A stretch of 64,000 bases of DNA from Clostridia bacterium (GTDB lineage Bacteria; Bacillota; Clostridia; Christensenellales; UBA1242). Positions 106 to 30,606 of this stretch are shown here, piece by piece; within the stretch, counting starts at the first letter, position 1, and each line of letters begins with the position of its first letter. The translations under genes were made by a program, and so were the position numbers. The stretch covers positions 1 through 64,000 of the forward strand of contig JAFUSR010000001.1 of the NCBI GenBank assembly GCA_017467585.1. Reading direction: 5' to 3'. A model generated the notes under the pieces. That model was not told where the DNA came from. It searched no databases and saw nothing but the letters and a program-made list of their open reading frames with translations.

Positions 106-141
106 ATGACTTGTAGCTCAGTCGGTTAGAGCACCACCCTG
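106..141 (+). repeat. 36-base direct repeat of the tRNA-Ile 5' half (other copy 250-285)
   Basis: Bases 106-141 are identical to 250-285, giving a period of 144 bases. The repeat covers the 5' acceptor strand, the D arm, the 5' strand of the anticodon stem and the first three loop bases of tRNA-Ile. Identity stops abruptly inside the anticodon loop. This looks like a partial duplication or conversion between the two units. Confidence 0.85.
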
Positions 142-237
142 TTGCCGAGCAGTTGCCAAACTGCGAACGCCAAGGTTTGAAAAACCTTATAAGGTTCCTT
201 GAAGGGTGAAGATGTGGGTCCAAATCCTGCCTTGTCA
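107..237 (+). ncRNA. tRNA-like element with structured insertion at the anticodon loop
   Basis: The first 35 bases are the 5' half of tRNA-Ile. A tRNA anticodon loop is then replaced by about 60 bases holding two perfect hairpins: GCAGTT/AACTGC (149-154/159-164) and AAGGTTT/AAACCTT (172-178/182-188). The arms are rejoined by CACCCT (135-140) pairing with AGGGTG (203-208). A T-arm-like stem (GTGGG 213-217, loop TCCAAAT, CCTGC) and a 3' strand CTTGTCA (231-237) follow; TGAC at the 5' end pairs with GTCA. There is no CCA, the T loop lacks the normal TTC, and two acceptor positions do not pair. A normal tRNA function is therefore unlikely. It could be a decayed pseudogene or a structured RNA co-transcribed with tRNA-Ile from the promoter at 28-56. 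Confidence 0.45.
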
Positions 238-250
238 AAGAATATTGTGA

Positions 251-22893: not shown

Positions 22894-22899
22894 AATTAA

Positions 22900-22928
22900 A
22901 TTATACGTTATGCAAATATAAAAGTCAA
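22900..22928 (-). promoter_or_regulatory. promoter of the candidate small RNA
   Basis: On the minus strand TTGACT (22928-22923), 17-base spacer, TATAAT (22905-22900). Confidence 0.65.
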
Positions 22929-22940
22929 CTCCCTTATCGC

Positions 22941-22967
22941 AAAAAAACACAACCCTTGTGGGTTGTG
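22941..22967 (-). terminator. terminator after the GIY-YIG gene
   Basis: CACAACCC (22948-22955) pairs with GGGTTGTG (22960-22967), with seven T residues following on the minus strand. It is a near copy of the tRNA-Ser terminator at 24306-24335 with a different loop. Confidence 0.85.
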
Positions 22968-22999
22968 CATAAGGCTAACAAGTGCCTTTGCGATGGCGG
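22961..22999. repeat. 39-base direct repeat, left copy
   Basis: Identical to 24329-24367. In the right copy the sequence is the last six bases of tRNA-Ser (including CCA) plus its 3' flank up to the terminator arm. Here it stands at the end of the GIY-YIG gene with no tRNA. The two copies are 1,368 bases apart and bracket the endonuclease gene. Confidence 0.9.
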
Positions 23000-23021
23000 C
23001 GTGATAGCTCCTTTATACGCA

Positions 23022-24098
23022 CTAATCTTCTACATGTTTCCAGTGATAACCACCAGATTTTAACTCTGGATGTTTAAGACATCGTTTTATGGCAGATGAT
23101 GCACTGGTCTTTTCTATTGCTTCTTTAATTGAATTGTATATAATACCAGTTTCAACGCATTGTACTTTTGTAAAGTTCCCATTTTTTCTTGGTTTCCAAT
23201 CTAAACTATAATCTTCTTGATAACACCAATAATAACCACCAGTAGAGATTTGTTTACCATTGCAACATCTGCTTATAAGTTCAGGACTAGAAATATTATT
23301 TTTGTTTGCAGCTTCGCTAATGTTGTTATAAACGACAATCTCTTCATAATTGTTATTATTAATTCTTACCACAGGTCTTTCATCTAATGGCAACAAAGGA
23401 ATAAAAGAATCATAATCTTCTATATAGCACCAATAATAATTTCCAGCACTAATTCTTTTGCTTCTGCAACATTGTCCAATGCTTGAATTCTTAATTCCCG
23501 TTGCTTTTTCAGCATCTAAAATTGATTCAAATTTGCAGACAATATTCATAGATTTATCTAACTGATAAATTTCTTTTTTATTATATGCAGCAGGCGGGGT
23601 TCGTTTTTTTGGATTCCAACCATCATGCCACTCATCTTGGAAACACCAGTAATAACCACCTGCTTGAATATCTTTTTTATTTTTTAAACAGCATCTTGAT
23701 ATTTGAGAATGGTCTATACCTGTTGTTTCCTCTGCATACCGAATAGTTTGATAAGCATTGACAATCTCTAAACTATTAATATCTATTTGAAGAACTGGTA
23801 TTCCTAAATGATCTCGGTTATCACCACCAGAAGTTAAATTATAGCCGTTTTTATATGAATCATATTTTGTAATGTAATAAACTTCTTTTTCATTTGCTTG
23901 CTTTACGGAATTAATACCTTTCTCAAGGATTTCATGTACAAAATTGTTCCAGCCATATTTTTGAATTGAGTGATAAAAATATACATTATTTTTATAACCA
24001 TTTCCATTTCTCCACCTTTGCGTCGGTGTTTGTTTAGTTTGTCCAATATAGACTTTTCCATTAATTTTATTTGTGTGTTTATAAATTATCCATTCCAT
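23022..24098 (-). CDS. GIY-YIG homing-endonuclease-like protein with four NUMOD-type repeats
   Basis: A 358-residue protein. The N-terminal GIY-YIG nuclease domain spans residues 3-92: 'WIIYKHTNKINGKVYIGQT' with Y6 and Y17, an arginine at 28 or 30, and E72 in 'EKEVYYI'. Four copies of a DNA-binding module follow (about 100-155, 172-225, 240-295 and 312-358), each with a 'A...TGI..S.I..CC' helix pair and a 'GGYYWCY' ending, as in NUMOD1-type modules of homing endonucleases. The gene is free-standing, not in an intron or intein. A -10 TATAAT lies only six bases before the ATG and there is no Shine-Dalgarno site, so translation is probably leaderless. It lies just downstream of tRNA-Ser between two copies of a 39-base repeat. 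Confidence 0.9.
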   Translation of the reverse strand: MEWIIYKHTNKINGKVYIGQTKQTPTQRWRNGNGYKNNVYFYHSIQKYGWNNFVHEILEKGINSVKQANEKEVYYITKYDSYKNGYNLTSGGDNRDHLGIPVLQIDINSLEIVNAYQTIRYAEETTGIDHSQISRCCLKNKKDIQAGGYYWCFQDEWHDGWNPKKRTPPAAYNKKEIYQLDKSMNIVCKFESILDAEKATGIKNSSIGQCCRSKRISAGNYYWCYIEDYDSFIPLLPLDERPVVRINNNNYEEIVVYNNISEAANKNNISSPELISRCCNGKQISTGGYYWCYQEDYSLDWKPRKNGNFTKVQCVETGIIYNSIKEAIEKTSASSAIKRCLKHPELKSGGYHWKHVED

Positions 24099-24104
24099 GT
24101 CTCG

Positions 24105-24110
24105 ATTATA
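24105..24110 (-). promoter_or_regulatory. -10 box of the GIY-YIG gene
   Basis: TATAAT on the minus strand, six bases from the ATG. No good -35 at 16-18 bases. Bases 24111-24305 otherwise contain an AAAGTTG/CAACTTT hairpin near 24255-24276 and nothing else I recognise. Confidence 0.5.
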
Positions 24111-24305
24111 GCATATAAGTTCTTTTTTTGTCCCAAAACAAACGCAAATTCCAAAACAATCTTCAGTAACAAAAAAGTACGCAACTCATTACGCTCCGTT
24201 CTAATCCCAACAGGTTAATTATTTCTTTAAAATAAATCATTTTTTAAGTCGGGACAAAGTTGTGAAAGCAACTTTGCGTTTGGCCCGAGAAGCAAAGGCC
24301 TTGCG

Positions 24306-24335
24306 AAAAAAAAAACACAACCTAGAAAGGTTGTG
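24306..24335 (-). terminator. terminator of tRNA-Ser
   Basis: CACAACC (24316-24322) pairs with GGTTGTG (24329-24335), followed on the minus strand by ten T residues. Confidence 0.85.
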
Positions 24336-24367
24336 CATAAGGCTAACAAGTGCCTTTGCGATGGCGG
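24329..24367. repeat. 39-base direct repeat, right copy
   Basis: Identical to 22961-22999. It spans the final bases of tRNA-Ser (CCA, discriminator and two acceptor bases) and its 3' flank. Confidence 0.9.
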
Positions 24368-24454
24368 AAGCGGAGGGATTCGAACCCTCGTGCCGAATTT
24401 CTTCGACAACCGCATTTCGAGTGCGGCTCGGTGCGACCACTTCGATACGCTTCC
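24362..24454 (-). tRNA. tRNA-Ser (anticodon CGA)
   Basis: A 93-base class II tRNA. The anticodon stem CCGCA/TGCGG encloses loop CTCGAAA with anticodon CGA. The long variable arm (TGTCGAA/TTCGGCA) is typical for serine. The acceptor GGAAGCG/CGCTTCC is perfect, with discriminator G and encoded CCA. Confidence 0.95.
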
Positions 24455-26424: not shown

Positions 26425-29400
26425 ATGAAAAAGTCTAAAATCTTTTCAACAATCTTGTCGCTCGCCATTATGTTTGCATTGGTTATGCCTGTTGCAATCC
26501 TTTTTGCTGGTTGTAACCAACAAAACACAAAGGGCAGATTGATTTATCTTTTGGAGGGTCTTGAAGCAAAAAGTGTTGAATATGACAACGGAACAACCCT
26601 TTCTCAAGAGCAAGTTTATGACAACTGGAAGGAGACACGCCCTGGCTATGTTTTTGATGGTTGGTATTTCGACTCTGCAAGAACTCGCAAAGTTGAAGGA
26701 AATGTTACCATTAACGGTGATGTTAGACTTTATGCCACCTCTTCTCTTGGCAGATTTACACTTTCGTTTGATACAAACGGTGGAACCGAAATTGCACCAA
26801 TTTCTAAAAACTATGGTTCAGAGATTGAAGCAGTAGACAACCCAACCAGAACAGGTTATGACTTTGTTAGATGGAATCCATCTATCCCTGCGACCATGCC
26901 AGACCACAACATAACTGTTGTTGCTGAGTGGCAAGTTCATTCTCATTCTCTCACCTTTATTTGGGGTGATGGCGACGACGAACGTGCAGTCATCAATTTG
27001 AACTATGGCGAGGCCGTTGTTGCACCAACCCCAACAAAAACTGGCTACACCCTTGTTGACTGGGGCGAAGAAGTTCCCGAAACCATGCCAGACGAAGACA
27101 TTTTTTACTATGCCAACTGGCAGATTAACCGCCACACCATTACATTTGATTCAAACGGTGGTTCACCAGTTGATTCTATAACAGAAGACTATGGAACCGC
27201 CATTTCTGCTCCAGAGTCACCAACTCGAGATGGTTATACATTTGCTGGTTGGTTTTTGAGTGATTCTGCTTATCAATATCAATTTTCAACAATGCCAGAC
27301 CAAGATCTCACTCTTGTTGCTCACTGGGTAGACCACGGATTTACGCTTACATTTGTTTTAAACAATGGCGAGGCAAACATAGTTCTTGTTCAAAGTGCAG
27401 GAACAGACTTCGAGGCACCTGTGCCAACAAGAACTGGCTATGACTTTGAGGGATGGACTCCAGATTTGCCAACCACATTCCCAGCAGAAAACATGACCCT
27501 TGCCGCAAACTGGAAAGCTCATCAATATTCCATTAAACGAACCTATGTTGATGGAAGCGACGAAATTTCAACCTACACCATCGAAGACGTGTTCACACTT
27601 GCCGCATCAACCAGAGAGGGACACACCTTCGATTATTGGGTTGTTTCGTCAGCCGCAGGAAACTGGGTTGCAGATGAACATATTACTGCAACAACCGAGC
27701 TTTCAGGAAAATATGGCGACATCGAAATTGTCGCTGTTGACCACATTAACACCCACACCATTACTTTTGTTTGGGGTGAAGGCAACGACGAACGCATTGC
27801 CACACCTTTAGAATATGGTGAAACCGTCATTCGCCCAGCCGACCCAACAAAAGAGGGCTACACATTTGCGGGATGGGACAGCACAATTCCTTCTATCATG
27901 CCAGACCACGACGTGACAATTACTGCAACATGGCAAATTCAACAACACAACATTAACATTGCCCTAGCCGACAAGCAAGTTGAAAACTGGAACGAGGCAA
28001 TTGCTGCCAAAATTGAAGAATATCAAACAATTTTAAACAACCCCGACACTCCTGCAGAAACCAAAGCTCAAACCGCAAAACTTAAAGCAATTCTCGAAAA
28101 TGCAGCAAAAACATTTGGATATGCATTCTTTGCAAACAGCGTCGACTTTGGCGACGAAAACATTTCAACCATTTTCAACTCTTATGCCGCAGAACTCTCA
28201 GGAACAGCAGGCGCAATAAAGCAAGCAGCTATTAACGCCGGCGCAATTGAAAACACATATAAAGCATTTGCTTCAAACACCACAACTGCTTATCAAGTTT
28301 CATATAACACCAACATTTCTTCGCTTTATGTTGTGTTTGCAGGCATGTTCTTTAAACCAGAAAAAGTAACAATTTCAATTGGCGAACATATTGTTGAAAT
28401 TCCAACATTAGAAGTTGGAACATCATCTCAACTCGTTCGCGTTGAAAAAATTTCAGGTTTTGCAGCAGTTAGTGTAATAAAACTTAACTTAGATATCAGT
28501 GGAATTCTCGACGAGGGAAGATATATCCACAACGGCGACATGGACATTGCCATTTCTTGGAAAAAGCTTTCTTCAACAATCGAATATCTCAAAGGCGAAT
28601 TGCCAAATGATGGCGAAATTGAAGGCGACGATTTCAGCGACCGCCTTGAATTTGATTCTGGCTATGCCTTTGCTGGTTCAGACTATGGTGCAGTGGGATA
28701 TCACGTTGTTAACTGGAATTACAATGAATCATCTTATCCAACAGGTTCTGCACTAAGCGCAGCCCAATGTCTAGAGTTCTATTTGCAAACCCCTTCTCTT
28801 GTTGCTGAGTGGCAAGCAAACCAAACAATTTTGAGTTTTAATGCCAACGACAACGACTTTGTTGACTACCCTGCAACTATGCCAACCTATGATGTTCGCG
28901 CGAACTATGGCGAATTGCTCGGCAACCTTGAAGAAGTTCCAACCAGAACTGGTTTTAACTTCTTAGGTTTCTTCACAAGCAACAACATCAAGCTGTTTAA
29001 TGCGGACGGAACTGTTAACAAACCATCCACACAAAACGAATATATTAGCGAAACCGGAACATGGGTGTACTTTGGAGAAAACAACCAAAACCTTTCACTT
29101 TATGCTCACTGGCAAGGTGCAACCTATTCTATCACCTTTAACGCAAACGGCGGACTCTTTACAAACAACGAAGAACTTTATGTCGCTGACTTTGCGTGCG
29201 GAGCAACAGTTGTTGCCCCAACCAACCCTTCTAAATCTGGTTGGAAATTCAACGGCTGGAACATTCCAATTCCTGACCGCATGCCAGCCAACAACCTAAC
29301 AATAACTGCCCTTTGGAAGTCGTTTCACGTAACAGTTAAAGTAGACGAGGGCTTTGAAGACGCCGGAACAATTGTTGAAATAGACGACGACATTTTGGCG

Positions 29401-30606
29401 GGAAACCAGGTTGAACTGAGAGTGCTTTCTGTAAATAACGCTTTTAACTTTGCTGGTTGGTTTGACATTAATCTTCAACAACTAATTTCAACCGAACAAA
29501 CCTATTCTTTTGAAATGGGCTTTGCAGACCGCAACATTGTTGCAAAATTTGTAACAAGGCCAGAACTTTCTAACTTTGAATTTAACACAACAGATGGATT
29601 TGTTATCACTGGTGTGAAAGACAGAACAGTGTCTTCAATTGTTGTTCCTAGCTATGTAACAGAAATCGCCGAAGGTGCATTCAAAGGTTGCCCTAACCTT
29701 GTATCTCTCGATATTCCATTTATCGGTAAATCTGCAGACCAAAATTCGTTTACAGTTGAATTTGATGGTATGTGGTTCCATTCATTTAAAGTTACTAAAG
29801 ACGAATATGATGCAGTTAATAGCAAGTCTACAGTTTACATGAAAATCTCTTTTTATAAAACGATTGATGACGTTAAAGTTTATTACTACTACTTATTGCC
29901 ACATACATTAGTTAACCTCTATCTACATGCAACTTATGGTGTTGACGAGAATGAAAACCCAAAAGCTTTAACTATTCCAAATATAGCATTTTGGAAGGAT
30001 ACAAGCACAACACCAAAAACAACATTAACCACAATTTATTTTGACGGAACTATTGAAAATTGGATTGGGCTTTCATTTGGGGCACAAACAGCAAATCCGA
30101 TGTTCTGTTCAACAACAACAAATTTCTATCTTAAAAATAATCAAGGAGAATATGTTTCAACCGCAGGTGAATTAGTTATTCCTGATGGAACAACAAAAAT
30201 TACGCAAAACACATTCTTAGGATGGACACAAATAACAAAATTAGTTCTGCCTGTTGGTTTAAAAACAATTGGTCAAAATGCGTTTAAAGGTTGCACAGGT
30301 CTGCAAACAATAATCATAAATGAAACAGCTTATTCTGCAGATTCTCATACCTATGCAAAATCTGTGTTTGCAGATTGTTACACTGACACAAAAATTAATG
30401 TCTACTTTGCAGGAACACAGGAGCAATGGAATGCTATTGCTGGAACAAAAATCAAAGATGAAACACTGCTTGATCCAAACAAAACTAATGTTTATTTCTA
30501 TTCAGAAACAGAACCAACAGCCGCTGACTACACAACCGACGAAATTCGTTTTTGGCACTACGTAGATAACGAGCCAGTTATCTGGACAAAACCAACTCAA
30601 TCATAA
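26425..30606 (+). CDS. giant surface lipoprotein with InlB B-repeats and LRR_5 repeats
   Basis: The 1393-residue protein has a type II signal peptide ending 'VAILFAGC' with lipid-anchor Cys30. About seven InlB-type (Listeria-Bacteroides) beta-grasp repeats follow (residues 35-510), each with a pattern such as 'PTRTGYDFVRWNPSIPATMP' and an 'A.W' ending. A helical, alanine-rich domain lies at about 510-690, a mixed domain at 690-800, and three more B-repeat-like modules at 800-1050. The C-terminal 330 residues carry BspA-like LRR_5 repeats ('TEIAEGAFKGCPNLVSLDI', 'KTIGQNAFKGCTGLQTIII'). Such proteins are surface adhesins or binding scaffolds. The start is fixed by AGAGGTG and the signal peptide. 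An SDR gene follows after ten bases. Confidence 0.92.
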   Translation: MKKSKIFSTILSLAIMFALVMPVAILFAGCNQQNTKGRLIYLLEGLEAKSVEYDNGTTLSQEQVYDNWKETRPGYVFDGWYFDSARTRKVEGNVTINGDVRLYATSSLGRFTLSFDTNGGTEIAPISKNYGSEIEAVDNPTRTGYDFVRWNPSIPATMPDHNITVVAEWQVHSHSLTFIWGDGDDERAVINLNYGEAVVAPTPTKTGYTLVDWGEEVPETMPDEDIFYYANWQINRHTITFDSNGGSPVDSITEDYGTAISAPESPTRDGYTFAGWFLSDSAYQYQFSTMPDQDLTLVAHWVDHGFTLTFVLNNGEANIVLVQSAGTDFEAPVPTRTGYDFEGWTPDLPTTFPAENMTLAANWKAHQYSIKRTYVDGSDEISTYTIEDVFTLAASTREGHTFDYWVVSSAAGNWVADEHITATTELSGKYGDIEIVAVDHINTHTITFVWGEGNDERIATPLEYGETVIRPADPTKEGYTFAGWDSTIPSIMPDHDVTITATWQIQQHNINIALADKQVENWNEAIAAKIEEYQTILNNPDTPAETKAQTAKLKAILENAAKTFGYAFFANSVDFGDENISTIFNSYAAELSGTAGAIKQAAINAGAIENTYKAFASNTTTAYQVSYNTNISSLYVVFAGMFFKPEKVTISIGEHIVEIPTLEVGTSSQLVRVEKISGFAAVSVIKLNLDISGILDEGRYIHNGDMDIAISWKKLSSTIEYLKGELPNDGEIEGDDFSDRLEFDSGYAFAGSDYGAVGYHVVNWNYNESSYPTGSALSAAQCLEFYLQTPSLVAEWQANQTILSFNANDNDFVDYPATMPTYDVRANYGELLGNLEEVPTRTGFNFLGFFTSNNIKLFNADGTVNKPSTQNEYISETGTWVYFGENNQNLSLYAHWQGATYSITFNANGGLFTNNEELYVADFACGATVVAPTNPSKSGWKFNGWNIPIPDRMPANNLTITALWKSFHVTVKVDEGFEDAGTIVEIDDDILAGNQVELRVLSVNNAFNFAGWFDINLQQLISTEQTYSFEMGFADRNIVAKFVTRPELSNFEFNTTDGFVITGVKDRTVSSIVVPSYVTEIAEGAFKGCPNLVSLDIPFIGKSADQNSFTVEFDGMWFHSFKVTKDEYDAVNSKSTVYMKISFYKTIDDVKVYYYYLLPHTLVNLYLHATYGVDENENPKALTIPNIAFWKDTSTTPKTTLTTIYFDGTIENWIGLSFGAQTANPMFCSTTTNFYLKNNQGEYVSTAGELVIPDGTTKITQNTFLGWTQITKLVLPVGLKTIGQNAFKGCTGLQTIIINETAYSADSHTYAKSVFADCYTDTKINVYFAGTQEQWNAIAGTKIKDETLLDPNKTNVYFYSETEPTAADYTTDEIRFWHYVDNEPVIWTKPTQS

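Follow-up and report, generated by a model that had tools for sequence, protein, structure and literature searches.

A GIY-YIG endonuclease gene lies next to an intact tRNA-Ser(CGA) gene in the window (the whole 64,000-nt stretch of Clostridia DNA analyzed here), between two identical copies of a short sequence from the tRNA's 3' flank. The initial annotation interpreted this arrangement as a possible minimal homing element, in which insertion of the gene had duplicated the flank. The question was whether the gene made the duplication or entered a structure that was already in place.

A two-hairpin element at the 3' end of tRNA-Ser(CGA)

The features on which this part of the analysis depends are the following, with bit scores from two covariance models, R1 (built from 3 sequences) and R2 (built from 29 sequences).

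24362..24454, minus strand: tRNA-Ser(CGA), anchor of the unit (ARAGORN and Rfam RF00005)
24329..24367, minus strand: right copy of the 39-bp repeat (6 nt of tRNA plus the first 33 nt of the element)
22961..22999, minus strand: left copy of the 39-bp repeat
24235..24367, minus strand: proximal element copy (two-hairpin head), flush with the tRNA CCA (R1 164.7 bits, R2 119.4 bits)
24292..24359, minus strand: stem A, arms 24352-24359 and 24292-24299 (folding, covariation)
24249..24288, minus strand: stem B, a bulged hairpin (compensatory changes; independently by RNAalifold)
22894..22999, minus strand: second element head, truncated (R1 40.4 bits, alignment)

The direct repeat was confirmed (39 of 39 positions identical, starts spaced 1,368 bp apart), and a perfect match this long greatly exceeds what chance would give in a genome of 0.97 Mb. 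It widens to 59 nt (22941-22999 and 24309-24367) at 90% identity; the mismatches fall in the terminator hairpin, where both copies retain an intact stem. The tRNA was detected as complete by ARAGORN and Rfam, in keeping with the proposal that the unit leaves it undamaged, and its share of the 39-bp repeat is limited to the last 6 nt (CCGCCA). CCGCCA is present at both ends of the unit, in the intact tRNA on one side and in a copy of its 3' end on the other; other units carry longer tails. The endonuclease ORF is the only gene of the unit, as annotated: no integrase was found within it, and no Rfam intron was matched in the window or in the loci examined.

The right copy of the repeat was identified as the beginning of an element of ~130 nt with two hairpins, which starts exactly at the CCA end of tRNA-Ser. 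Stem A encloses the terminator hairpin (about 24316-24336) and a T-run, and stem B is formed by outer arms (24282-24288 and 24249-24255) and inner arms (24269-24275 and 24256-24262). In the sister species (G001), the same segment (~80-130 nt) occurs downstream of tRNA-Arg(ACG) and is preceded by 18 nt that repeat the 3' end of this tRNA exactly; aligned with the two copies from the window's own genome, it gave one compensatory pair per helix. A group I or group II intron or other known RNA family was rejected: no Rfam family was matched at gathering score, and matches at E ≤ 5 were at chance level. The left head stops after its terminator and is missing both the 3' arm of stem A and stem B. 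A lost second tRNA-Ser at this position, raised earlier as a sign of tandem tRNA duplication, fits only in part: 6 nt of tRNA are kept, and the remainder of the left copy is truncated element head.

Copies of the tRNA tail were then counted in the window's own genome (G000; 973,583 bp, 4 contigs) and in sister genomes, using the last 14 bases of each tRNA and a threshold of at least 12 of 14. Downstream of 10 of 78 tRNAs lies a copy of the tRNA's own tail with no endonuclease, where about 0.001 per tRNA and 0.08 in total were expected from the tails of other tRNAs. At tRNA-Leu(gag) of the sister species, tail and terminator are perfectly duplicated around a short, gene-less spacer. The frequency of such copies, together with the tRNA-Leu(gag) case, makes flank duplication a property of the tRNA loci of this lineage and not of the endonuclease. 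The proposal that the gene had created the duplication is not supported.

Copies of the element at other tRNAs and at other sites

R1 matched 19 of the 309 genomes of the window's bacterial family; R2 matched 22 family genomes and gave one weak match outside the family among the 396 genomes of the order. The genomes with the element, at least 22, are essentially all from the window's own family. A plain pattern search for the head had returned matches within the genus only, and the wider family emerged with the covariance model. At least 8 copies are present in each of several genomes. Among the loci examined, 24 of 110 distinct copies start flush with the CCA of an intact tRNA, a count to be read with the composition of R1 and R2, whose seeds are CCA-flush members and whose first six positions favor such matches. 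Flush copies occur at 15 different tRNAs: Ser(cga), Trp, Leu(cag, aag, tag, taa, caa), Arg(acg), Glu(ctc, ttc), Gln(ttg, ctg), Val, Gly(ccc) and Met. The search for similar units beside other tRNAs, suggested by the initial annotation, was thus positive for the element. A further 31 of the 110 copies lie on the same strand within 1 kb downstream of an intact tRNA. Copies that start on a tRNA tail (at least 11 of 12 letters) numbered 39, versus 0 for tails read backwards. Others are located in palindromic intergenic repeats, where ATGACA precedes them. Tandem arrays occur, often with shortened tRNA copies ahead of them, and most units are 80-300 bp long and non-coding.

Viral contigs contained no exact element motif. 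A family member (L204) compared with phages and the window copy compared with plasmids gave no match, and neither an excision product nor an empty orthologous site in the same species was seen among the relatives, which are largely draft genomes. The open-access papers searched gave no description of elements of this kind at tRNA ends, and within these sources the hairpin element is apparently undescribed. Two candidates were set aside. A motif match in L013 lies in a GC-rich, coding-looking region and was taken as chance, and a 13-nt TTCATCCACCGAA repeat in the sister genome is confined to that one locus.

A third copy of the repeat, with 1 mismatch, was found in the window's own genome on contig C4 (C4:27366-27404). 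Around it, C4:27228-27404 matches the following segment of the window, and the endonuclease is absent.

24190..24367, minus strand: stretch shared by the window and the gene-less C4 copy (178 bp, 98% identity; comparison with C4:27228-27404)

The C4 copy terminates in ...AATCCCTCCGCTTCCGCCA, which is how tRNA-Ser(CGA) of the window ends. The nearest tRNA upstream of it is tRNA-Ser(TGA), with the tail ...CTAACCTTCCGCCA. A CGA-type tail beyond a TGA-type tRNA suggests that a unit carrying the tail of one tRNA-Ser has moved to another. Between the two lies a phage-like element of ~6.8 kb, at the 3' end of tRNA-Ser(TGA) (L003:7381-14168), which encodes a large serine recombinase, repressor-type HTH genes and DUF6291; its recombinase gene stops within the CCGCCA junction.

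A large serine recombinase of this kind could be proposed to move the unit as a non-autonomous integrative element, with the CCGCCA of tRNA-Ser as attachment core. The placement of the recombinase element between tRNA-Ser(TGA) and the C4 copy, the recombinase gene that runs into the core and the similar inverted arms at both ends of that element are consistent with this. However, the acceptor ends of the family differ (Leu, Glu, Arg, Trp, Gln, Val, Gly, Met) and have only CCA in common, and the copies inspected did not show the arms of the serine element; this route was judged very unlikely.

Simple tandem duplication or repeated unequal recombination of the tRNA-Ser 3' end and its trailer, followed by decay and by insertion of the gene between the copies, would dispense with a mobile hairpin element. 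Tandem copies of tail and trailer are common here, some of them nearly perfect (tRNA-Trp, L192), and the arrays contain 5'-truncated tRNA copies. Against this, the same element is present on 15 different tRNAs as well as at sites without a tRNA, and a unit with a CGA-type tail lies beyond a TGA-type tRNA. Duplication also predicts repeated sequence beyond the second trailer, whereas the downstream sequence there is not repeated. We consider this history unlikely.

The endonuclease gene and its probable insertion

The gene and the boundaries of its probable insertion were placed as follows.

23022..24098, minus strand: GIY-YIG / NUMOD1 endonuclease gene, 358 aa (Pfam, NCBIfam TIGR01453 and I-TevI 1ln0/1mk0 match)
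23016..24189, minus strand: putative gene-bearing insert, 1,174 bp, bounded by TACGC (comparison with L003:7229)
22994..23018, minus strand: distal end GTATAAAGGAGCTATCACGCCGCCA, also found downstream of a 97% identical gene in G007

The ORF looks intact and encodes a GIY-YIG domain and NUMOD1 repeats (PF01541, 23.6 bits, cut-off 22.6; PF07453, 40.9 bits; TIGR01453, 64.8 bits, cut-off 56.05). It aligns with I-TevI (1ln0/1mk0), and the catalytic Arg and Glu positions are present. With this catalytic domain and NUMOD-type DNA-binding repeats, the predicted protein has the characters of a GIY-YIG homing endonuclease.

Compared with the gene-less C4 copy (L003:7229), the window has a gene-bearing insert of 1,174 bp with the 5-bp sequence TACGC at each side. 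The gene-less copy reads ...TTTATACGCTCCG... and the window reads TTTATACGC-[gene]-TACGCTCCG, so that TACGC occurs once in the former and twice in the latter (23016-23020 and 24190-24194); the basis of this apparent duplication is one gene-less paralog, whose left flank is similar over 9 bp only. One TACGC in the gene-less copy and two around the insert mark the gene as probable cargo. The gene most likely entered an already existing element and then travelled with the CCGCCA-ending flank.

The closest relative of the endonuclease (97% amino acid identity) is found in another genus (G007); there a second ORF comes after the gene, and beyond this ORF come the same end GTATAAAGGAGCTAGCACGCCGCCA and an unrelated terminator. 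The second ORF (L023:1302-1856, 184 aa, family not assigned) lies directly after the gene and is absent from the unit in the window. A gene 97% identical, in another genus and beside the same flank ending in CCGCCA, indicates horizontal movement between genera. The earlier descriptions of the gene as a mobile GIY-YIG endonuclease and of the unit as mobile are supported. Relatives of the endonuclease were matched in 12 of the 309 family genomes in all; at the remaining loci the element is absent, and a tRNA lies within ~0.5 kb at only one of them. Endonuclease relatives are present in 184 phage records, and the GIY-YIG relatives in viral contigs are at most 44% identical.

Under the homing hypothesis, the GIY-YIG protein would have cut beside tRNA-Ser, and repair would have left the 39-bp duplication around its gene. 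A single intact GIY-YIG/NUMOD1 gene between perfect repeats fits this, as does the shared CCGCCA end of the 97% identical gene. In homing, however, a gene is copied into its cognate site, and long flank repeats are not normally created. A host intron or intein, or a gene interrupting its cognate target, would characterize a homing element; here no Rfam intron was matched, and the repeat exists without the gene elsewhere, as part of a multi-copy element found gene-less at many tRNAs. The sister species' tRNA-Leu(gag) has the same duplication of tail and terminator without the gene, the other GIY-YIG relatives of the family are without the element (with a tRNA near one locus only), and the C4 paralog suggests that the gene entered later. 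A minimal homing element is accordingly improbable, and the endonuclease is taken to be a true mobile gene but a passenger.

Pairing, relation to known systems and proposed origin

Paired columns of the element were changed on both sides in 513 cells. The covariation score was 0.550, compared with 0.136 for shuffled and at most 0.081 for slid controls, in an alignment fitted to the structure; RNAalifold had found stem B unaided in an earlier set. Watson-Crick pairs numbered 2,105, A-C 30 and G-T 19 (0.9%). In a smaller alignment G-T stood at 1.3%, and in tRNA stems of the same genomes G-U stood at 7.4%. RNA stems tolerate G-U, not A-C. The finding that G-T is no commoner than A-C is strand-symmetric and suggests pairing at the DNA level, and the hairpins are probably kept as DNA instead of RNA. 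The low G-T could also reflect Watson-Crick-paired seeds, or palindrome correction during replication, rather than a selected DNA fold.

A conserved tRNA trailer RNA (with a role in processing, termination or as a small RNA), spread by gene conversion between tRNA loci, would likewise be flush with CCA, contain terminators and show strong covariation. The scarcity of G-T relative to A-C in the paired columns argues against it, as do the patchy presence between sister species and the copies away from tRNAs, and we rate it decidedly unlikely as the origin of the element. A role at the transcript level may exist, since many copies contain a terminator.

The element was compared with four known systems. 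Like the attC sites of integron cassettes (PMC2727003), it is a palindromic DNA site with conserved structure and variable sequence, seemingly paired at the DNA level, arranged in tandem arrays and occasionally carrying a gene; unlike integron arrays, its arrays are anchored on a tRNA CCA and most units are gene-less, and unlike attC it has no GTTRRRY / RYYYAAC core, its junction being the tRNA CCA followed by variable letters. As a palindromic, non-autonomous repeat with at least 8 copies in several genomes and covarying hairpins, it resembles REPINs/TnpA_REP and the palindrome-associated elements of IS200/IS605 (PMC3116915, PMC8266576), which are likewise small and lineage-restricted, and like REPINs it is presumably mobilized in trans by a hairpin-recognizing transposase. 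It differs from REPINs in its length (about 130 nt), its two distinct hairpins and its strong bias to tRNA 3' ends. Insertion at a tRNA 3' end with the tRNA intact, a tail copy at the far end and tandem stacking are shared with tRNA genomic islands and phage satellites, but the unit is without an integrase, the repeat includes only 6 nt of tRNA, and most units are 80-300 bp and non-coding. The gene resembles free-standing phage GIY-YIG/NUMOD endonucleases (I-TevI, TIGR01453) in its domain, I-TevI-like catalytic residues and NUMOD1 repeats; unlike these, its host is a tRNA-anchored element, not an intron or a phage gene.

A separate mini-insert of many Clostridia was distinguished from the hairpin element (R1 matches nothing in those loci). 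It has a median length of 45 nt and the consensus YTCAGCCGAG-hairpin-GAACGCCACGAG-..GAGT, and it was found in L097-L176 (Pumilibacter intestinalis, P. muris, Protoclostridium gallicola and other Clostridia genomes) and, in the window's own genome, in L049, L052, L056 and L064. Both ends were recovered for 88 mini-inserts in 80 loci; AT follows 78 of these, and for 39 an intact tRNA is no more than 300 nt away. The flanks of 29, when joined, match that tRNA (D, anticodon or T loop), and some mini-inserts are in tandem arrays of interrupted tRNA copies beside the intact gene. In the window, a tRNA-Ile copy (107-238, plus strand) just upstream of tRNA-Ile (251-327) has a hairpin insert of ~50 nt in its anticodon loop (TTGCCGAGC..GCGAACGCCA.., before ATAAGG), and Rfam scores the copy as a tRNA with a 62-nt gap. 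Tandem repeats of 99 bp and 121 bp composed of truncated tRNA-like sequence and mini-insert occur in L118:1-650 and L170:4830-5249, those of L118 upstream of an intact tRNA-Ser(gga). The mini-insert resembles the mobile GC clusters of yeast mitochondria and may be their bacterial counterpart. Elsewhere in the window (26425-30606), a predicted lipoprotein of 1,393 aa has repeats resembling InlB B-repeats.

We propose, as the probable explanation, that the locus is a composite of a tRNA-anchored hairpin element, moved by a recombinase or transposase acting in trans, and a later endonuclease insertion. A palindromic DNA element of ~130 nt sits directly on the 3' CCA of tRNA-Ser, and the repeat consists of the tRNA's last 6 nt and the element's first 33 nt. 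In this reading, the second, 3'-truncated head after another CCGCCA makes the locus a short, tRNA-anchored tandem array, in which every unit ends in a copy of a tRNA 3' end, preserving the tRNA and its termination. The hairpins, single-stranded or as a cruciform, would be recognized by the putative enzyme, which would attach the unit to the CCA of a tRNA or to an ATGACA site; the tail copy and the built-in terminator would keep the tRNA functional. The phage-type GIY-YIG/NUMOD1 gene would have been inserted later inside the unit, with the apparent 5-bp TACGC duplication, and it spreads horizontally together with the CCGCCA-ending flank. A related and rather unlikely possibility is tRNA-anchored, integron-like capture, in which a recombinase would insert small cassettes at folded-DNA sites, successively onto the CCA of many tRNAs, each cassette regenerating the tRNA 3' end and some bringing genes such as the endonuclease.

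The 3' ends of tRNA genes are the classic docking sites of integrases. In a family of roughly 1-Mb genomes, a small hairpin element that encodes no enzyme uses the CCA of 15 tRNAs, builds tandem arrays at tRNA ends and carries at least one gene. The pairing pattern favors selection on folded DNA, which would set the element beside attC and the IS200/IS605 hairpins as a structure-recognized site, and the element offers a test bed for the origin of tRNA-linked repeats.
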